From Beroe ovata (taxonomy: Eukaryota > Ctenophora > Nuda > Beroida > Beroidae): a DNA stretch of 64,000 bases. The position numbers were made by a program, and so were the translations under genes. The notes beneath the pieces were generated by a model. It had not been told where the DNA came from, did no database searches, and saw only the letters and a program-made list of their open reading frames with translations. Positions 40,185-63,304 of the stretch are shown here, piece after piece; the first letter of the stretch is position 1; each line of letters begins with the position of its first letter. The DNA is taken from contig CAMPET010000053.1 in the NCBI GenBank assembly GCA_946803715.1, positions 246,209 through 310,208 on the forward strand, written 5' to 3'.

Positions 40185-42143
40185 ATGAGGATTCTTTCTC
40201 CAGAGAAAAAGTATCTGTATTATCTCATGATAAGGTAATGGTCCTTCTCACCAATTTTGTCTGGTTAGGTACATATAATAAATACATTAAACCCAATATT
40301 ATCCAGTCAGTTACATGAAGATGGATACACTCAGCAAGCCCTCCAATTAGAAGTATCGACCATCCACAGTTCAGGAAATGTAAAAGCTAGTGACAAATTA
40401 AGTAGACTATTCTCCTCTTGTCTTTCAAGTGTTACAGAGGCTACTTCCTTTTTCAATAGCAAAGGTGATATAAATTTGATTGTTATTGGTGTATTAAATC
40501 TTTGTTTGCAGATAATTTATAGTAGTAACTCCTAATTCCTGTGTTCAGTTGGTGGAATAGCAGGAAGAAAGAGACATGGTAATCAATCAGCAGCAAACAT
40601 CAGGGCTGCTAATCTTGCTAATCTTGCTAAAAGAAGGAGAACAGCAGGCTCAATTGACTCTACTTCAATGCTTCAAGATTCCATTAAAAAATGTGTGAAG
40701 CTAGTGACCAGTGATCTTCACAAAGCAACATCTGATATAAAAGCTATATCTCCGGGAGCTAACCCACTTCTCAGTCAATCTAAACAGCCTGCAAAAAAGA
40801 GTTCACCTAACATGAAACAGAGTTCTCGACAACTGTTTTCTGGCTCATCCTCTAAAGGTCCCATACCAAAACCAGGCATTGCTCCTGTCTCAAATTCCTT
40901 TTTGAAAGGAATAAGTTTGCTGAAGTCTTCACAGTTGCCGTCAGTAACACCCTATGGCACAAATGTATCCCAGCTAGCATCAAGCAGTGCTTTGACCATC
41001 GGGAATCAAACCCCAACAAACAGTAAAGCAATGGTGCCATCCAATACTTCTCAAACACCTCCAAGTCAAAGAGTGGCTTCTGATACAGCAGCAGTTGTCC
41101 GTGTAACTAAGAATCCATCTAATGATCCAGTTGTTATTGATGTTGAAGCAAATACCTCAAGGGGAATTCAATCCACAGGTGGGCTCCAGTTAACAAAACC
41201 AAGATCTTTTCCAGCTTCAAACCTTTCTCATGCCCTCCCTTGTAGCTATACTCCACCAAAACTTACATCTCCACATTTATTGGGAAAGAAACCCATTCTG
41301 ACTGTTGGTCAGACTAATACCTCAGCCCTGAAATCTCTTGTGAGTAAAGTGGCTAGAACCCCAAAACTTCCTGCAAAATCATCACTGGAAGTTGTAGTTA
41401 TTGATGACAGCACCAGTAGTAATAGACCTGCACAGCAACCAGTGATGACAATAAGCTCTCCCACTCCAAATGTGGTCACTACAACTCCACCAAGACGGTC
41501 TGCAGCTCCAACTCTGACAACTCCTGAATCATCACCTTTACAAAGAAGTACTTCATCTTCTCCAAGCATGGCACCACTTGAAAGTGCTATGTCTCCTGTC
41601 TTAAGCACCCTAGGCTTACAACCCTCATCCAGAATAGATCAAACAAGTTCTGCATCAGCTGCCCAGCCTCGCTCACACCATTCCCCAAATCAAACTCATT
41701 CCTACACCGATTCAGCAACATCATCGCGAGCTGATACTCCTGCAAATGGTTTAACCTCAGAGAAGCCTATACAGGAAGACTCGGGTAGTTCTGCTGATCT
41801 TCAGGTGAAGGAAGAGGGTGTTCCGCTGAACCCTCTAGAGATAGCTTGTGGAAGATGTGAAGAGGAGGATGAAAAGTTTGCCATTCCATCAACCTCGGGA
41901 GGAGACAATAATGAAGGAAACACAGATCAGGGTGCTCTCGATGATCAGCAAGAGTCAGGTCAGACTGATGCTCCCAAATCTCGAGATATGGCCACAGCAG
42001 ATACTGATTTCCCAGAGGATATCTTTGCCCCGGAAGTTCCAACATCAGCTGCAACCGAAAAAGGATCGAAAGAATCGACAATTGCTACCACTTCGCTATC
42101 AGATGCTCTACATGCTGCGTCTGATGCACTGTTGGAAAACTGA
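40185..42143 (+). CDS. CstF-50-like dimerisation domain + Ser/Thr/Pro-rich protein (600 aa)
   Basis: Exons: 40185-40234, 40307-40464, 40549-42143; phases agree. Residues ~7-69 read EKKYLYYLMISQLHEDGY followed by a helix and ASDKLSRLFSSCLSS, matching the N-terminal dimerisation domain of CstF-50 (LYKLIISQL.YDGY ... PS..LL.L). No WD40 repeats follow, so it is not CstF-50 itself. Next come a basic stretch (AGRKRHG, NLAKRRRTAG; likely nuclear localisation) and ~500 residues rich in Ser, Thr, Pro and Gln with acidic patches (VVIDVEA, VVVIDDS; possible SUMO-interacting motifs). No DNA-binding domain was found. Coding exons 1 and 2 (50 and 158 nt) are the same lengths as in the zinc-finger paralogue at 49301. 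Family membership is by eye; function is inferred to be nuclear. Confidence 0.86.
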
Positions 42144-49292: not shown

Positions 49293-49304
49293 ATGGCAGC
49301 ATGA
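49293..49304 (+). promoter_or_regulatory. Four-codon uORF (M-A-A-stop) overlapping the zinc-finger gene start
   Basis: ATGGCAGCATGA overlaps the assigned ATG at 49301 through the shared ATGA. An upstream acceptor-like CCCAG at 49271-49275 suggests both lie in the same exon. This arrangement would favour leaky scanning or reinitiation control. Confidence 0.45.
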
Positions 49305-52300
49305 CTGACACTCACCTAGACAAAAGATACCTCTACTACCTTATTATCAGGTAAGTTATTTGGAGATGATCACCATCATAATATGTTCTACTCATTCCCT
49401 ATTATCTCATCAAGTTTTACTCAATGTGTTACTTATGAGCTTATGTATGAGTAACCATAATACCTATATCTATTATCTAGTCCACTGAGCACACTTGAAT
49501 GTTCAATATTCAACTTTCACTGCCCAAAATTTGTGAAGAAACGTGTAACCGTACACTTACTCTGACTCAAGTTTCTACCAAATTCTATAACTTTTACAAG
49601 AGTTCAAAGGATTCCAGAGAATTCTCAATAACTTTATATCCGTCTGTTTCAAGTGCACTGAATCTCTAATAGCCTTGTCCAGACCCTGAAAATTAATCAA
49701 TCAACAAAATACGTTAACGCCAAAAGATTAGAGCTTAACAGGACTTGAAATTCAACAAAATTACAACACGAAATTATAAAGTTTGCAAGCGATGACTCCT
49801 CAATTATGGATAATTTTCGTATCTTTTCAACAGCTTTAAATTGACGCCGAACAATTTATGGTTACTTCATGGCATAAAGAGGAACATATTGTTGCTGGTT
49901 ACTAATTTTCCTCAAATTACAACTCCGCAACGTGCATTGTTATTGTTATGTACAGCAGTTGTAATGATAGGTTATGCCTGGGTATAATATGTAACTAGAC
50001 ATGTGTCTCAAGATATTATTCTCTTTCAGAGGTTCGTCTGTCAAGTAGAAACCTGTTGTGCTACGTATCGTTTCACGCGAACCTCACTCGACATTTTCTG
50101 ACATCGTGAAAGTTGGAGATTAATCTTTGAAACTTAGTTGACACCACTTTCAGTGTTCACCCCATTTTCCCCTCTCTTTCTGTTCACACCACTTGTTCTG
50201 CTTTATTAACACCACTTCCATTCCCCTCTCTTGACACCGTGTATACCTGCAGTCAGTTACGACAAGATGGATACCGACAGCAAGCCCTCCAACTTGAACG
50301 AATCATTCTACAAAGCTCACAGAGTGTACCGCCTAGCAACAAACTAGGCAATCTATTCTCTTCGTGCATCTTGAGTGTCAATGAAGCGACCAACTTCATC
50401 AACTCAAAAGGTAGGTAAAACGGCTGTAATACAAGTGAGTTTCGCCGTTGAAGGTCGAAACTTCTCACATACTTGGGGAGCCTGGCGTCAGCTCTCATTC
50501 AACCAATTGACATCGTCACCATCTTACCATTACTTCAGATCCAGAAGCAGTTGGTAAGACCGAATCATCGCCAGGCTCAGCAACTGAACACTCCCCTGTC
50601 CGACCTGAGCTTACTACTCCCCTCCCTTCATCACCTTACCAACCACCCTCCAACTCACCCTTACCGCCAGTCTCATCCGTCGTGAGCATTCCTCAACTAG
50701 CCACATCTACCCACCAGCCCTCCATACTCTCCACCCATGAGATATCCAGCTCGTCAGATTCAGGAGCATCACCTCAGAACCAGGGTCCGAGTTTCCAAGA
50801 CTCGTTACAGACTTGTTTGGAGCTTTTGAGCGGGGAGGGGGGCGGGGGTTCGCATTCAGGTAATGTCAAGGACTCTATAACAGAAGTAGTACAGATTATC
50901 AATAACTTGTCGAAATTAAACACTCCACCAAATGGAAACGGTGGAGAGATGTTGGTACTAAAGGATGAGCCAGTGGAAACAGATCCTATGAAGATCACAA
51001 GAGCTCTGGAGTCACTTCAGCAGACATTTAGTGTGAATAACAGTGAGGATGGTAGTATTGGTAGTCTAGCAAATGCACTGGAAGGGACACCTAACATGTT
51101 GGGATTGGAAAATAGTGATGTAACTCTAGATGATCTTACAAATGAGTTGTATGAGCGAAACGGAATGTTGAAGCAGTTTTCCCTTGCAGACAAGCAACTA
51201 AAATGTGCGAAGTGTGATTACTTGACATTTAGTAAACGTGCCTTTACACTTCATCTGAGGAGCCATGAGGACACACCAGTGAAGAAGGGTGAGAGGATGT
51301 CTTTTGCTAAGCACAACTATAGTGGTAATAAGCTAGTTCTCAGGCCCTATGCTTGCAAACTCTGCAAATACAGGGCTCCTTCCAGAATACAGCTAACGTT
51401 ACATGTCCGAACACACACTGGAGAAAAGCCCCATTCCTGCCCTTACTGTGATTACAGGACTGCACAAAAAGGTAATCTCAAGAAGCATATTGAGTTTAGG
51501 CATGCCAAAACTGAAAACAACGTTCACACGTGTAACATTTGTGGGTTCGAAACCTCTTCCAAAATGCAGCTTTCCCTTCACATCTCATCCTCTCATAAAG
51601 ATAAACCTCCTACGCAAGGACTTGAAGAGCCTGAGAAAAGGTACATCTGCAAGTACTGTGACTTCAGGTGCGTCTGGGTTGGCAGTTTACGGAGTCACAT
51701 GTTTGATAAACATCCAGAACAGATGGACAGATCAAGATCAGACCCGCCAGAACACAAGTGTACCTTGTGTGACTACAGCTCCCAATGGAGGGGTAACCTC
51801 AAGACACACATTATGAGGAAGCATGCTGAGCCGATGCTGACAGACGGATTCTTCCATTGCAAGAGGTGTTCCTTCAAATGCAACAGCAAGGAAGAGCTAG
51901 AGTCTCATTATGACACTCACATTTCAGACGAAAGACCATATCAGTGTACCCTGTGTGATTACAGAGCTGGACTCAAAAACACGCTGGATACACATATGAA
52001 ATACAAGCACAGCACCGAGAAACCGTTTAGTTGTAGCGTTTGTAGTTACCGCTGTGTTACCAAAGGTCAGCTGACAATCCATCAGCGGAAGCATACTGGG
52101 GAAAGACCTTACAAGTGCCCATATTGTTCCTATGATACAGCTCAACAGAGCAACTTGAAATCTCATGTCAAGCACAGACATCCACAGCAAGAACAAGATA
52201 TTTTCAATTCCAGAAGAGGAAGGAAGAGAAAATACCCTCTTCAGCAGGCGAATGATGAATCTCAAACAGGATCAAATACGGTCCAATTAGCTCCCTTCCT

Positions 52301-52652
52301 CGCAGACTATAGCCAGAGCAGTGAAAGTTACATGACTAATGTCAGTGAGAGTGATCTTCAGGATGTTGAACACAAGCGACAGAAGTCCAGTCCTGATCAG
52401 TCTTTAATGAAGAACAGAACCATCAATAATATGGAGTATCCTTCATCTGCACAAAATGAAAGGGACGGTACAATGAAATTGGGGCCATTCCATGCAGATT
52501 ATAGCTTGAACAGTGACAGCTTCATGACCAATGTGAGGGAATGTGATGAAAGTGAACCAACTCTTACCGTAGCTCAAGACACGGGTTACACTCAGAGTTA
52601 CAAGGGTAACATAAGTATGGAGGTCATGCTACCAAGTGGATCAGGGACATAG
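49301..52652 (+). CDS. CstF-50-like dimerisation domain + ten C2H2 zinc fingers (773 aa)
   Basis: Exons: 49301-49350, 50253-50410, 50539-52652; phases agree. Residues ~7-69 (DKRYLYYLIISQLRQDGY ... PPSNKLGNLFSSCI) closely resemble the CstF-50 N-terminal dimerisation domain. A Ser/Pro-rich linker with acidic helical segments (residues ~70-285) follows, then ten C2H2 fingers at ~290-620. They start KCAKCDY, YACKLCKY, HSCPYCDY, HTCNICGF, YICKYCDF, HKCTLCDY, FHCKRCSF, YQCTLCDY, FSCSVCSY and YKCPYCSY, several joined by TGEKP/TGERP-type linkers. The CxxCDY style with 4-5-residue His spacing recalls REST-like arrays. A basic RRGRKRKYP stretch and a twice-repeated motif end the protein. It is predicted to be a nuclear, DNA-binding, dimerising protein. 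No WD40 repeats. A 4-codon uORF overlaps the start. Polyadenylation signal AATAAA at 54034 is possible. Confidence 0.9.
51202..52188 (+). other. Ten-finger C2H2 zinc-finger array
   Basis: Ten C-x2-C...H-x3-5-H units are visible in one exon without introns. Fingers 2-3 and 9-10 are linked by consensus TGEKP/TGERP. Finger 7 (FHCKRCSFKC...HYDTH) and finger 5 keep all four ligands. No finger appears broken. Confidence 0.95.
52286..52552 (+). repeat. Duplicated PFxADYSxxSxSxMTNV motif in the zinc-finger protein tail
   Basis: Two copies, PFLADYSQSSESYMTNV and PFHADYSLNSDSFMTNV, lie about 64 residues apart after the zinc fingers. They are conserved at the protein level but divergent at the DNA level, pointing to a constrained peptide motif. 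I do not recognise it. Confidence 0.9.
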
Positions 52653-55703: not shown

Positions 55704-58700
55704 ATGAAGTTGAACGGTGTTTCTCTTCCTACGGATAAACAATACCTCTACTACCTTATCATCAGGTAAATCCATTTGTTGACACCACTTCATAGCATCT
55801 GAATCTCTTGACACCATCTACCCTGACATTACTCTATTGTGACACCGAAGGCGTTGGCGCCACTTTTTCCACCGTCAATCTTGACACCAATTTGTCTTTT
55901 TGTCCGGGCCATGCGATTATCGTATGGCCCGTACATATCGTATGAGCCGTACATATCATAGTTCATGGATTGGACGATTGAATAAGAGTCGCATAAGTTA
56001 CGATGATAAGTTTAAAAACTTATCAACACTACTTATTACAATCAAATTTGAGCCTGACGATGTCGTTGAACGACGAAATTGATCGCAATTAAAAAGACGT
56101 ATTTTCATTTGTAAACAGAGTCAAAAGAGAATTAACTAACTCTCTCTCGCCGTACATATCGTATTACGATAGATCGGTACCTTCACTAATCACAATACAC
56201 CATATTAGCATATTTATTCATGGACCACTTGACACAATAGCTTTCAGTGTACTACACACGCATCATATATGAGAAATGTATTCAGCAATTAGCTAATGAT
56301 CGAAACGAGCGAGTCAAAGATGTCAAAATGTATTGCAAATGAGACACAATGATCCATATCTGACATATATGATGATACATTAACTTTCATACACACCGCG
56401 CTAAGTACTTCTATACCTAAGTAGAATTTGATGTTCTCATATCAATGTTTGTACTGACGAAAGATGCGCCCGCCGCCTAGTGTTTCGTATTGAAATACGC
56501 CCAAAACATGCCTTCTGTTTTCAAAATTCGTGTATAATACTTTGAACTTTTCATCCTTACGTCTCACTCTCGGTCTCCCTTTTTCATACCTTTCCCTTCA
56601 TGGATCTCATGCTCTCTCCTACGTTAGGGACAATGGACATTCACCCCCTCGCAACTAATAGCATCTGTATGATAACAGTAAGTCCCTTGTTTCAGTCAAC
56701 TCTACAGAGATGGTTACATGGAGGCAGGAATGCGCCTCGAAATGAGCATTCTAGACTCAACAGGTAAGTAGGGAATATGGGTTGCCCGCAGAATTAGGCG
56801 AGTAGAACTAAATGTTATATCATTAGCTCATTAGGTATCACATCAACCAGATCAATCTTAATAGATGCTATGCGACAATTCCTGTATTTCAGGTCAAGTG
56901 TTACCAAGCAACAGGCTGAGTTGCCTTCTATCAGAATGCTTGCAGAGTTTTAGCGATTGGTCCGACTATCTAGCTAACCGACAAACTAATGGTTCGCTCA
57001 TCGAGAACAATTTCCAGCTTCAAATCCCGGTTTTTCTTATGAAAATTGGTTCTATGTTTTACTCAACATTGATAATCCTCAGTGCTCAAGCCCCTGACAC
57101 CGCCCTCTCCCCCAACGTCTCTAACGAATCCACTCCAAACCCCTCTCGATGCCACGACTAGGAAACGTCTGCACTCTGGTCCTGCAACTACCTCAACTTC
57201 TGCTCACAGGAGTGTCACGGTGGGTGGATTTCACCTTTTCAATATTCTGTTTCATTGAATAACCGTCTTGATTTTCATTCCTCATTCCTCAATTATAGCA
57301 CCCCCTCTTATTCCCCCCTTACTCCCTCACCACTCCCTCCATACTCCCTCCACACTCCTCCCCACTCCCTCCCTACTCCCTCCCCACTCCCTACTCCCTC
57401 CTAACTCCCTCCTAACTCCCTCTTCTCCTGCACAGCAAGGAGCTTCCTCTTCCACCATCTTCGTCCCGACCTCCGTTTTTCCCGCCACATCCTCCTCTGA
57501 GGGTATATACACGACCACCACCCCCTCCCCCTCCTTCGTTCCCCCGTCCACCAACTCTGATAACGGACAACAAGTGGTGGAATCGGGCGCCATCAGGTCG
57601 CAACTATCCAAGGTCAGCATTCACTACATGTCTTTCAACCAACCGTACGATCCAGATACCGCCGATTCCTTTGTTTTTTCCTATGTCTACCGTAAAAAGG
57701 ATTGATACTGGTAGTGTGAGAGAGCAGGAGACATGATTTGGTGAAAAATTTGTGTCGTAAGGGCCGATGAAGCTTTCATTAGAGACCCTCAAAATCGGAG
57801 TATAAAAGTACTTTCTACCGATAGGTAGTAGGTACTCAGATCAGAAAATCGAAGAAATTTTTTTGTTTTATTCTCATGCAAACTCTATGTATTCCCATGT
57901 ATTTTTGGACGCTTAATCTATTTCCGAACAAATTTTGGCCTCATCTTGCTTCCTTGAGGAGATGTATGTCGTGTGACTTCGAATTTTAAATCCGAGAAGA
58001 AATTGGAATTTATCTAAGTTCCTCGATGAGCTAGCTCAATAATTCCTTCAGATTCGGATTCTACGTCAAAAAATAGGCCAAAAACACTATATAACAGCAT
58101 GTCACGTGCAGAAATAATTTTGGCCTATTTGTGTGTCCCATTGATTTTCGCGTTTTTGTAGTGTTTGCTTCCCAGGGGAGAGAAATCGTCATTTGAGCGC
58201 AGTTTCACGGCGAGTATGCACTACACATGATCGTAACGAGAGTGGATATTTGTAGTTTGAGAGTAGGAGAGATGATTTGGTGGAAAATTAGTGTCGTAAG
58301 TGCCGGTAAAAACATCATTAGAGACCTCCGAAAATGAAGTAGAAAAGTGTGGAGTCATTCACTTCATTTTCTACCGATACTCAGATCAGAATTCGAAGAA
58401 AATATTTTTGTTCTTTTTCCATGCAAATACCATGCATTCCTATGTATTTTTCGACGCTGAATCGATTTCCGAACGAATTTTGGCCTCATCTCGCTTCCTT
58501 GAGGAGCTGTTTGTCGTGTGACTTCGAATTTCAAATCCGAGGAAAAATTGGAATTTATCCAAGTTCCTCGATGAGCTAGCTCAAAAATTCCTTCAGATTC
58601 GGATTCTACGTCAAAAAATAGGCCAGAAAAACTATATTACAGCATGTCACGTGCAGAAATAATTTTGGCCTATTTGTGTGTCCCATTGATTTTCGCGTTT

Positions 58701-61700
58701 TTGTAGTGTTTGCTTCCCAGGGGAGAGAAATCGTCATTTGAGCGTAGTTTCACGGCGAGTATGAACTACACATGATCGTAACGAGGGTGGATATTGGTAG
58801 TGTGAGAGTAGGAGAGATGATTTGGTGGAAAATAAGTGTCGTAAGTGCCGGTAAAAACATCATTAGAGACCTCCGAAAATGAAGTAGAAAAGTGTGGAGT
58901 CATTCACTTCATTTTCTACCGATACTCAGATCAGAATTCGAAGAAAATCTTTTTGTTCTTTTTCCATGCAAATACCATGCGTTCCTATGTATTTTTCGCC
59001 GCTGAATCGATTTCCGAACGAATTTTGGCCCTATCTCGCTTCCCTGAGGAGCTATCCGAGCTGTAAGTTTTAATATTTTGTGTGTGTCAGAGAACGATCA
59101 AAACATACTTTCTTTCTCAGGAGTTAGAAGAGATATGCAATGCTGCGGCTGCTGATGTCCGCCCAGAGACGGCATCATCATCATCATCGGCAAAACCTCC
59201 GGCAGTCAGCCTAATGGAGCATTCGTCACCGGTGAAGCTTGTGTCACAGCCAGCTAAACACACGACACCGCAACACAAGCATCAAACTCGGTCCAAAACA
59301 TCGACACGCAACGAAACCGGTGAGCGGAAATCCGAAATATCACGTGATTACGTTGTCCAATATGTTATGTCACGTGACCTCAATGCCATGACCCCTTCTC
59401 CTACCCCAGCCTCGAATTCTGGCTCATCAACGAAACAAGTCCCCTCTTCCACCCTCACTGACCCACCTCCTCCCTACCCCACGTCTCTCAAAGTGGAACC
59501 TGTCGAGCCTACCTCCATTTTCAAAGTAGAACCAGTGGAGCCATCCTGCAAACTGACGATGGAGTCAGGGCTCCATATCAAGATAGAAATGCCGGAGCTG
59601 GAGGAAGCACTGGATCCGGGAATCTCGTCGTCAGCTCTTCTTTCCTCGTCTCCAGGAGTGGTGGAGAGGACTGGAAATGGGTTGTGCAAACCGGGAAATA
59701 GTCACAGGTAGGAGCTTCTTCTGCTTACAAACTCCCGCTGACACCACTTTTCCTTGACACCACTTCTTCTTGACATCACTATTTCTTGACACCATTTTCA
59801 CCCTGACAGCACTTTCGTGTGACACCACTGACTACCTATATTCTCCTTGATACCACTCCTTCCTTGACACCAGTGATCATTATATTCGCTGACACCACTT
59901 GCCTTGACACAACTCTTTCCTTGACACCACCTCAGTTCAGTATATTCTCCTTGACACCACTTTCAACCTGACACCACTTCTCCTGACACCACTTATAATA
60001 TATTATCTGACACCATTTTCCTCGACCTCACTCTTCCCTTGACACCATTCTCGCCTGACACCACCAGTTACCTTGACACCACCTCAGTTCGAACATAGCC
60101 TCACCGATTGTCAGTAACTCATCAGCGGCGGATGAGGCAGCAAAGACCCTTCTCGACAACTTGAACAGTATCTCGAATATTAGTGAGATTGGGGATATCA
60201 ATGAGTTGACACAGAGCATTGTCGATAGCTTGGTGCAGGTCGGTGTTACTTCATATATTTGGTTGCTTTAATTGTTTCATTGATTGATCAATTTTATTTG
60301 GTTCGTCAAACAGTTTTTAGACTCTCTACCTTATCCAGCAATGATAGCATATAATTCAAAGAGTTCTGACAACCCCTGACAACCGCTCTAACCATCCATT
60401 CTCCTGCAGAGCACATCGATCCTCTCGCCGGATGACACCACCAAATTTGACACCTCCACTCCCTCCTCCTCCACATCACCGACCAAGGACCTACTCGGAG
60501 GAGATAGTGATGGTAAGATAGTGATGATGAGATAGTGACCTCCGATTAAAATTGATCCATCGTCGGCCACGGGCCATGTGATGGAAAAGGGCCGAGGGTA
60601 TATGTCACGATATTCAATAGTGAGTCTACCTATCTAAACTCTTCAGCTCATAAAAAGCACACCGATAGTTCAAACTATCCTATCCGGTGGAAATAAATGT
60701 TGCGAAATGTTGCATTTCACCATAAATTCAAGAGTTCGGTAAACTGGAAACTCAGAAAGCAACATATCGTGTTTTTCCAAAGTTAATTGAGATCTTAATA
60801 GAAAATAAACAGGCGTAGGTTGGTTTACAGACAGCCAAGTTGTGTGGAAATGGTTCTGATTGGCTAATATATTGACGTTTTTCCAGAATAAAGATACAAA
60901 ATGCATGGAATATTTCAAAGCGCATACTCATCAATAACAACGTATTTGATGAATTCCAGCTTCAAATGAATGATGGTCGATCTTCCGAGTTTATTCGTCA
61001 CGTGTGAGCATCAACTGAACGTTAATAATATCTGGACAGCAGAAACATTTCGTGTTCAAGATCTCGTTTTGGCGTACATCAGCTCACAATTCATGCGTAT
61101 TCCTGTACTTATTGTAACAAGATGGGCATGTATGTATTTATTTTGTAATACAATCTTTAATAAGACACACAGTGATATATTGACCAATCAAATGTCTCCC
61201 ATAACTCCAGATTAACCAATCAGAAACGCTTATTTCGGTCACGCGACCTGTGTATGAAAATTACTGCTTTATGTTTTGGGTATTTGATTTGATTATTCTC
61301 GGCCCAACCCACAATCATCTTATTTCAAGAAACACTTCAGCTCAAGTTACAGATACAGATTTACATCTTATTCTACACAATCAAGTGTCAGCTTACAGTA
61401 TACATTGTGTAGTGTATACTGTTCAGTATACAAGGTAGTATACATTGTGTAGTGTATACTGTACATTTATAAGGTAGTGTACGCTGTGTATACTGTACAG
61501 TTATAAGATAGGTTGAATAGTAACTTGACCATTGATAACCGTTGGTTATTATTAACTAAGTGACATATTATTTGACATGTTATGGGCTCACTTGACATTA
61601 CTGTCAATGTTTTTCATTGTTTTGTCAGTGACAATGTAATTCAGGAAAATTAGTCCAAACTGATGTATTACTCATTGCGATGTAATATTTACATCGTGAG

Positions 61701-63304
61701 GCGCAGTAGTAGTATAATCTATTGTATAAATAAAATGTAAAACTTATTATTCTTATTAAACACGTGTCCTATCACGTGCTGGCGTTTCGTCACGTGCGTC
61801 CTCCAATCTAGTTGCTGCTAGTTGTCATGACAACCAATCACGATGTGTCACGTGATGGAATGACAGCCAATCCTCCTTCCTACAAAATATCATCTTGTTC
61901 GATGAGTAGGATGATTGAACAACAATAGTACAATTAAACCAACCAATCCGCGAGCACCATTATTTTTCTCAGCCAATCAGCATGCCTGATTGAGTCACGT
62001 GTCTAACATTGACCAATTGTAGCGCGGTATCAGTCCTGTTGACCAATTACCGATTGTTCTATGTAACGTGATATTGGGAACAGTAAACTTCCCATCTCCC
62101 AGTATGGAATAATGTACAAAGTGACAGAGTTAAATACTCATATTATTCAACAGAGTGATGTTGAAATATTTTATGACATTCAAATTCCTGATTCATCTCT
62201 TACTGATAACTGACCATCAGTCTTTCTGTGAGAAGTCAATGAAGTTTCAATGAGCGAATTAGCATAGCACTCATTAGTCGATGAAGTAATGAATTACTGT
62301 TCTTGACAGGACATGAACCCATAGAGAAAAGTGACTGCGTTGAATGCTCTTGTGGAGCTGAATACATGAAAAATTTTTCTCTCGCGTGAAATAGACTTCC
62401 CGTCCTCCTTTCCTCAGCCCATCCTCAATCCCCACTTTATCCTCACTCTATACTCAGTTCACTCCCTCGCCCTATGTCTCAGCACATCTCTTCCCCTACC
62501 AACAATTCCCCTTCACTCCCCCCTCTCTCCCCCTCACTCCCCCCATCTCTCTCCCCCTCTCTCCCCNNNNNNNNNNNNNNNNNNNNNNNNNNNNNNNNNN
62601 NNNNNNNNNNNNNNNNNNNNNNNNNNNNNNNNNNNNNNNNNNNNNNNNNNNNNNNNNNNNNNNNNNNNNNNNNNNNNNNNNNNNNNNNNNNNNNNNNNNN
62701 NNNNNNCCCCCATCTCTCTCGTCCAGGAAGCAACACAGAAACATCACAGCAACAACTCCTCCTCTCATCCTCCTCCCTTCCTCCCGTTGTTCCCCCTTCC
62801 CCCTCATCCTCAACTCCATCCTCCTCCGAGAATTTCCAGCAACTCAACCTTTACAAGCAGAACAACACACTCCTCAATATCATGGGGTATAATTGTTCAA
62901 ATTCGAGGAATAAACCGTTCAGGAGGCATAGAACGAGATTTAATGATGAACAGGTGGGTTGGAACAGTTCACGTACTTTTGCTTTTCTTAAAAGTAAGTA
63001 CCATACAACGTTGCTATAACAATTCCATGCTTGCTATCTTGAATCGTTGCTATAACAACCCCAAGGTTTCTATCATGAATAGTTGCTATAACAACCTCAG
63101 GTTGCTGCTATGGAGCGGTATTACAACAACGTATCGCGGTACGCGCGTCCGGACAACGGCCTCCCTGAGCTGATTCGAGAAACTGGGCTCACGCACGATA
63201 CGATCATGTTATGGTTCCAGAATAAGAGGGCACGGGACAAGAGAAAGGGCTGGGATGACGTAGGGCAGGATGTTAAGAGATCCAAGACTGACCACATGGA
63301 GTAG
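55704..63304 (+). CDS. CstF-50-like dimerisation domain + C-terminal homeodomain (595 aa, 10 exons)
   Basis: Exons: 55704-55765, 56696-56763, 56893-56991, 57083-57219, 57436-57612, 59121-59707, 60115-60238, 60410-60512, 62727-62953, 63101-63304; phases agree. Residues ~11-75 (DKQYLYYLIISQLYRDGY ... LPSNRLSCLLSECLQSF) match the same CstF-50-like domain as the two upstream paralogues. A long Ser/Thr/Pro-rich linker carries duplicated KVEPVEP motifs and a helical block (AKTLLDNLNSISNISEI). The C-terminus is a homeodomain (FRRHRTRFNDEQ | VAAMERYYNN ... TIMLWFQNKRARDKRK) with Gln50, Asn51 and Arg53 kept and two extra residues between helix 1 and helix 3. It is predicted to be a dimerising DNA-binding regulator. 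An exon at about 62309-62388 ending in a stop could give a truncated isoform without the homeodomain. The donor after 56991 (gttcgc) is weak, and an N gap lies in the last large intron. Confidence 0.86.
57704..59050. repeat. Tandem ~545-bp repeat in a homeodomain-gene intron (2.5 copies)
   Basis: Copies begin near 57704, 58246 and 58791 with GATATTGGTAGTGTGAGAG-like sequence and share CTACCGATACTCAGATCAGA and GCATGTCACGTGCAGAAA. The two downstream copies are closer to each other than to the first. The third is cut off just before the exon at 59121. The open frames inside are repeat artefacts. Confidence 0.9.
59740..60090 (+). repeat. Degenerate TTGACACCACTT cluster in a homeodomain-gene intron
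   Basis: About fifteen imperfect copies of CTTGACACCACTT separated by 5-20 variable bases fill the intron 59708-60114. The same motif forms the array at 26440-26715. Confidence 0.9.
61388..61505. repeat. Tandem palindromic GTATACATTGTGTAGTGTATAC units
   Basis: Two to three tandem copies with a period of about 40 bases, each an imperfect palindrome built on GTATAC ends, lie in the large intron 60513-62726. They could form hairpins; the role is unknown. Confidence 0.8.
61761..62047 (+). promoter_or_regulatory. CACGTG and CCAAT cluster in the last large intron of the homeodomain gene
   Basis: CACGTG occurs at 61761, 61773, 61791, 61849 and 61996, and CCAAT at 61803, 61834, 61867, 61943, 61973, 62013 and 62043. 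This density resembles a CCAAT/E-box promoter and lies upstream of the homeodomain exons, so an internal promoter or enhancer is possible. Confidence 0.45.
62567..62706. other. Assembly gap inside a CTCCCC-rich repeat
   Basis: 140 unknown bases sit inside a CCCTCTCTCCC simple repeat, in the intron before the exon starting at 62727. The gap may hide length variation but is unlikely to hide a coding exon. Confidence 0.95.

Follow-up and report, generated by a model that had tools for sequence, protein, structure and literature searches.

The stretch of Beroe ovata DNA analyzed here (the window; 64,000 nucleotides of contig CAMPET010000053.1, positions 246,209 to 310,208, with a GC content of 41%) contains three genes, referred to as genes A, B, and C, that lie on the same strand within 24 kb, with A and B upstream of C. 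Each has an N-terminal module that resembles the dimerization domain of the mRNA 3'-end-processing factor CstF-50 (CSTF1), and gene C ends in a homeodomain. Positions of these three genes are those of the window.

A CSTF1-type domain and a homeodomain in gene C

The genomic sequence of gene C was spliced by hand into 10 exons (55704 to 63304, plus strand), which read as a single open frame of 595 amino acids. An earlier note on this DNA had proposed that a CstF-50-like dimerization domain is fused to a homeodomain here, with exons at 55704-55765 and 63101-63304. Both exons lie at those positions, as the first and last of the ten. The residues that the note quoted are also present: the N-terminal ones appear once exons 1 to 3 are spliced (LIIS/QLYRDGY..., ...PSNRLSCLLSECL), and the homeodomain ends in WFQNKRARDKRK. 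The exons are as follows, with identities to a Bolinopsis protein described below.

55704-55765, plus strand: exon 1, start codon and helix 1 of the CSTF1_dimer-type domain (MKLNGVSLPTDKQYLYYLII), ending in phase 2; intron position common to five paralogues, 18 of 20 residues identical
56696-56763, plus strand: exon 2, central part of the domain (SQLYRDGYMEAGMRLEMSILDST); 16 of 23 residues identical
56893-56991, plus strand: exon 3, last part of the domain (GQVLPSNRLSCLLSECLQS...); donor chosen by phase and likeness to paralogues
57083-57219, plus strand: exon 4, linker (LKPLTPPSPPTSL, RKRLHSGP), kept in Bolinopsis
57436-57612, plus strand: exon 5, linker of low complexity
59121-59707, plus strand: exon 6, linker with the motifs ELEEICNAA and KVEP
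60115-60238, plus strand: exon 7, conserved stretch in the middle of the linker (ADEAAKTLLDNLNSISNISEIGDINELTQSIVDSLVQ); 23 of 39 residues identical
60410-60512, plus strand: exon 8, linker; 8 of 31 aligned residues identical
62727-62953, plus strand: exon 9, linker, then the start of the homeodomain (from about 62921)
63101-63304, plus strand: exon 10, remainder of the homeodomain (as far as about 63244), then the stop codon

Protein domains were assigned with Pfam profiles at their curated cut-offs (26.6 bits for PF16699, the CSTF1_dimer family; 22.9 for PF00046, the homeodomain; and 25.2 for C2H2 zinc fingers). The profile search for a CSTF1 dimerization domain, which the earlier note had suggested, was positive: residues 1 to 84 of the first spliced reading scored 34.2 bits (expectation value [E] of 2e-8), and the domain remained above the cut-off, at 28.8 bits, when the full 595-residue protein was searched. 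The C-terminal homeodomain scored 47.8 bits as an 84-residue piece and 42.8 bits within the full model, and its recognition helix contains the WF.N pattern, as WFQNKRA. At E values up to 0.1, the only Pfam matches in gene C were Homeodomain, an overlapping weak Homeobox_KN match (16 of 24 bits), and CSTF1_dimer. Thus, no partner domain of a homeodomain class (ANTP, PRD, POU, LIM, SIX, or TALE) was among these matches, and some of these classes need none. When this one sequence was compared with the Protein Data Bank (PDB) using phmmer, two CstF-50 entries ranked first, with modest E values of 0.003 and 0.03.

A search of protein databases with the whole length of gene C, in which the 7,984 candidates sharing the most words were scored, returned a single protein at E values up to 10. 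This protein, a 448-residue product of Bolinopsis microptera (LOC134814232 isoform X2 in the source's naming; P0007 in our files), matched gene C with an E of 3e-115 and carries precomputed matches to both PF16699 (36.4 bits) and PF00046, so the same fusion, which the earlier note had proposed seeking in relatives, joins both domains in one chain there as well. The two proteins align collinearly across all 10 exons. Identity is 47 of 62 residues in the domain (residues 1 to 62) and 57 of 59 in the homeodomain, while only 153 of the 303 linker residues (77 to 379) align, 68 of them identical. The conservation of both ends, with much less in the linker, indicates that both are constrained within one protein. 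By eye, the conserved mid-linker stretch also resembles stretches in two further module genes, C14 and C261, which are described below.

All splice sites in the gene C model are of the GT-AG type and were picked by hand, with phase agreement among the criteria. The nine matching intron phases are therefore partly a product of the way in which the model was built, and independent support for the splicing comes from the Bolinopsis protein. Two places in the model are weak. The exon 3 donor (ATG/GTTCGC) is a poor one and was selected since the domain ends in phase 1 in the paralogues; its position agrees with the Bolinopsis protein, which was found later and reads AKPLTPPSPPTSL at this point. In addition, intron 8 contains a run of Ns directly before exon 9. 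Several features of the noncoding and linker sequence were also recorded. Intron 6 contains a dense TTGACACCACTT-like tandem repeat (59739 to 60047), a motif that also occurs near gene B. Repeats about 545 bp apart are found at 58300 to 59066, and repeats 543 bp apart at the C261 locus, between +799 and +2100 relative to the module exon; both sets are intronic in their module genes and read into similar stretches (FYRYSDQ..., FHANT). In the exon 6 linker, ELEEICNAA and KVEP are possible SUMO sites by their consensus.

Genes A and B, read by hand, have the following structures.

40185-42143, plus strand: gene A, exons 40185-40234, 40307-40464, and 40549-42143; 600 amino acids
49301-52652, plus strand: gene B, exons 49301-49350, 50253-50410, and 50539-52652; 773 amino acids

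Gene B combines the CSTF1_dimer-type domain with a C2H2 zinc finger array. Together they span three adjoining exons, the fingers lying in a 713-codon open frame that follows the module exon. A database search with residues 1 to 330 of gene B yielded six proteins at E values up to 0.001. One of them, from Mnemiopsis (P0001), is listed with 44% identity over 98% coverage and carries PF16699 (29.3 bits) together with C2H2 fingers. A second (P0002) has a module-like stretch in what seems to be a scrambled model, and the stored forms of the remaining four (P0003 to P0006) are without the module.

These data bear on the simplest objection to gene C, namely, that it consists of two neighboring genes, a short 5' CSTF1-like gene or pseudogene and an unrelated 3' homeodomain gene, that are joined only on paper. 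The model was indeed drawn from genomic sequence with hand-picked splice sites, a weak exon 3 donor, and Ns in intron 8, and the Bolinopsis sequence, too, is only known as a database entry. That entry, however, unites the two ends with the middle exons in a single protein, in which 55 of the 76 residues encoded by the first three exons are kept. Moreover, the module and the fingers of gene B sit in adjoining exons and are joined in its Mnemiopsis relative too. We therefore regard two separate genes as highly improbable. Our reading of the sequence supports a single gene that joins a CSTF1-type dimerization domain to a homeodomain and is conserved in another ctenophore.

The module family in the Beroe ovata genome

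We scanned the Beroe ovata assembly (77.8 Mb in 534 contigs) for further copies of the module. PF16699 matched eight places at E values up to 1, three of them above the cut-off. Most copies other than CSTF1 matched only partly, the first exon lying apart, and gene C was absent from the eight places, probably because its domain is split over three exons. CSTF1 itself (C106) was found as one open frame with the dimerization domain followed by WD40 repeats; since it is a separate gene, the module copies are not a broken CSTF1. No WD40 match was found at E values up to 0.1 in gene A, gene C, or the Bolinopsis protein, and none is listed for gene B.

Copies of the module that could be spliced or read by hand comprise genes A, B, and C, four copies elsewhere (C53a, C14, C177, and C261), and the short C81. 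The PF16699 scores were 38.0 bits for gene B, 37.6 for gene A, 39.3 for C14, 27.4 for C177, 49.3 for C53a, and 28.7 for C81; exon 2 of C261 alone scored 25.1 bits, below the 26.6-bit cut-off. The copies share their gene structure. The module occupies two exons (three in gene C), a phase-2 intron interrupts the domain within ...LII/S or a similar sequence in six of the seven longer copies (A, B, C, C53a, C14, and C177), and the domain exon ends in phase 1 in all seven, the gene C donor being inferred. The first exon of C261 was not found. A profile built from these seven copies, leaving CSTF1 aside, had two PDB matches at E values up to 1, both of them CstF-50 (32pv, 1.6e-9; 2xz2, 5.5e-9).

Two of the copies elsewhere in the genome are joined to a DNA-binding domain in matching phases, and C81 differs in structure.

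C261, 56497-60774, minus strand: module, linker of 350 amino acids, and forkhead domain (116 bits)
C177: module, linker, and C2H2 fingers over five hand-read exons
C81, 110419-110505: module copy without the first intron, in a short frame

Of the three finger frames of C177, one passes the C2H2 cut-off (29.9 bits) and the others score 18.7 and 17.2. Fusions of the module to fingers in C14 and C53a are tentative. Thus, the fusion described in the earlier note held up as one gene that is kept in a second ctenophore, whereas its scope was too narrow: the module is common to homeodomain, forkhead, and C2H2 genes of one genome.

A pattern search of the genome found all seven copies among 48 sites; the reversed control gave 53, so the pattern is not enriched overall. 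Of the 41 other sites, 18 were inspected, which revealed two diverged module-like exons (C56) and one doubtful case (C3). The C56 exons (within 58500 to 74000) lie 2.6 kb apart, score 15.1 and 15.4 bits, below the cut-off, and precede open frames in which a unit of about 65 residues recurs (VISILKEGWKLFSTFLIKVKEVIPCAKKYSAQEIIFAVFGVHSHQFLDF is an example); Pfam matches in the one frame scanned were weak, the best being BTB_3 (14 of 22 bits). A protein database search with a consensus module yielded 33 candidates, none of which scored at E values up to 10 even though known members exist, and it is thus uninformative on other phyla.

Other homeodomain genes of note are L003 and L004, two very similar NK-like genes (class assigned by eye) on different contigs, and L006 and L008, two divergent genes that both carry an N-terminal FEGIDPPLLDP motif and the stretch SLEDL...AA.IC.

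Dimerization as the likely role of the module

The CstF-50 dimerization domain adopts a three-helix fold (PDB code 2xz2). CstF-50 reportedly homodimerizes through this domain, as described by Moreno-Morcillo et al. in 2011. By profile, the module is the same domain as that of CstF-50 (PF16699; PDB codes 2xz2 and 32pv), and it is N-terminal in both. They differ in what follows, WD40 repeats in CSTF1 and a DNA-binding domain, or none, in the module genes. Zinc finger proteins of the ZAD, SCAN, and BTB/POZ types likewise have an N-terminal dimerization module, a variable linker, and a C-terminal DNA-binding domain, and they occur as several gene copies. Their design is similar, but the module is a different one by Pfam: the matches listed at E values up to 0.1 for genes A, B, and C include no ZAD, SCAN, or BTB domain. 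Unlike in those proteins, the module here joins homeodomain and forkhead domains as well as C2H2 fingers.

Starting from the identity of the domain, the gene models, the conservation of genes B and C in a second ctenophore, and the three DNA-binding classes, we infer dimerization, its partner, and its effect on DNA binding. Gene C would encode a ctenophore homeodomain transcription factor that begins with a copy of the CstF-50 homodimerization domain. It would belong to a set of at least seven genes in which the module is followed by a linker and, in most, by a DNA-binding domain: a homeodomain (gene C), a forkhead domain (C261), C2H2 fingers (gene B and C177, and tentatively C14 and C53a), or none that is recognized (gene A). 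The CSTF1_dimer module thus probably serves as a dimerization module in ctenophore transcription factors and is used as ZAD and SCAN domains are. It most likely turns each factor into a dimer, so that a pair of DNA-binding domains would contact two sites simultaneously. The linker, being long, could allow these sites to be widely spaced, as is thought for ZAD, SCAN, and BTB factors of other animals. That the homeodomain dimer is obligate, as the earlier note suggested, is a hypothesis.

Several observations, together with the hand-picked splicing of gene C, weigh against this interpretation. In gene A, the module was the only Pfam match, with no DNA-binding domain recognized, and no partner domain was seen for C81, which was not thoroughly searched for a DNA-binding domain. 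The joins to fingers in C14 and C53a are insecure because the fingers lie about 14.7 to 16.4 kb downstream of the module, in regions with Ns, and score 22.7, 19.6, and 18.1 bits, all below the cut-off of 25.2. The 7,984 candidates of the whole-length search yielded no counterpart of gene C from Mnemiopsis. The AlphaFold model of the Bolinopsis protein has helices at residues 10 to 25, 29 to 42, and 50 to 75, with a mean predicted local distance difference test score (pLDDT) of 49 and values below 50 at residues 44 to 71. A Foldseek search with this model did not return CstF-50 or 2xz2; its top matches were homeodomains, at E values of 0.07 and worse. Finally, the module copies have diverged to 25 to 60% identity to the reference copy of their alignment, so the dimer contacts could have changed.

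This divergence, and the uncertainty of the predicted structure beyond residue 43, would fit a module that has lost dimerization and persists as a leftover fold, now a helix bundle on which a co-regulator docks. Yet residues 1 to 62 are kept between the two ctenophores while the linker is much less so, and the core CSTF1 positions are retained; a docking role is accordingly quite unlikely. A different partner is a somewhat better candidate, if still an unlikely one. Here, the module would pair mainly across the family or with CSTF1, rather than as homodimers, and would thereby mix DNA-binding classes or link the factors to mRNA 3'-end processing. One genome contains at least seven related copies along with CSTF1, related domains often cross-pair, and the best-conserved positions (LY.LII.QL..D...A..L....PS..L) are largely common to CSTF1 and the factors; on the other hand, identities of 25 to 60% could equally mean insulated homodimers. 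Homodimerization of each factor through the module remains the interpretation that we favor.

Precedents and implications for ctenophore gene regulation

Some homeodomain classes pair the homeodomain with a second conserved domain, as gene C does, and HD-ZIP III proteins have one that is said to regulate dimerization (PMC4901127). The term "CstF" does not occur in the main text of that review of homeodomain classes, and the partner domains of 76 Mnemiopsis homeodomains given in Table 1 of Ryan et al. 2010 include none that is CSTF1-like (PMC2959044). In the open-licence literature, we found no mention of CSTF1_dimer, PF16699, or IPR032028, nor of ctenophores together with CSTF1. The nearest ctenophore parallel is provided by CTEP1 and CTEP2, C2H2 tethering proteins reported only from ctenophores, whose DNA-binding domains were cloned for DNA affinity purification sequencing (DAP-seq) (Kim et al. 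2025, PMC12221973). Gene B may likewise be a ctenophore-only finger protein; the main-text passages of Kim et al. give no CTEP gene identifiers, and their main text uses "dimer" a single time, for nucleosomes. The same source says that ctenophores lack CTCF. A bolder proposal, which we regard as speculative and unlikely to hold in full, is a phylum-wide ctenophore superfamily built on the CstF-50 module, in which homeodomain, forkhead, and C2H2 members pair, also across classes, and the C2H2 members bridge distant sites as the missing loop tether of the CTEP type.

For gene C, the finding is a homeodomain architecture of which we found no earlier report and which, if the interpretation is correct, offers a testable source of pairing specificity. 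For the family as a whole, it would mean that a core mRNA 3'-end-processing domain became a shared dimerization module for three unrelated DNA-binding classes on an early animal branch. If so, it would also suggest a way for finger proteins to tether chromatin loops in ctenophores, which are said to lack CTCF (PMC12221973).

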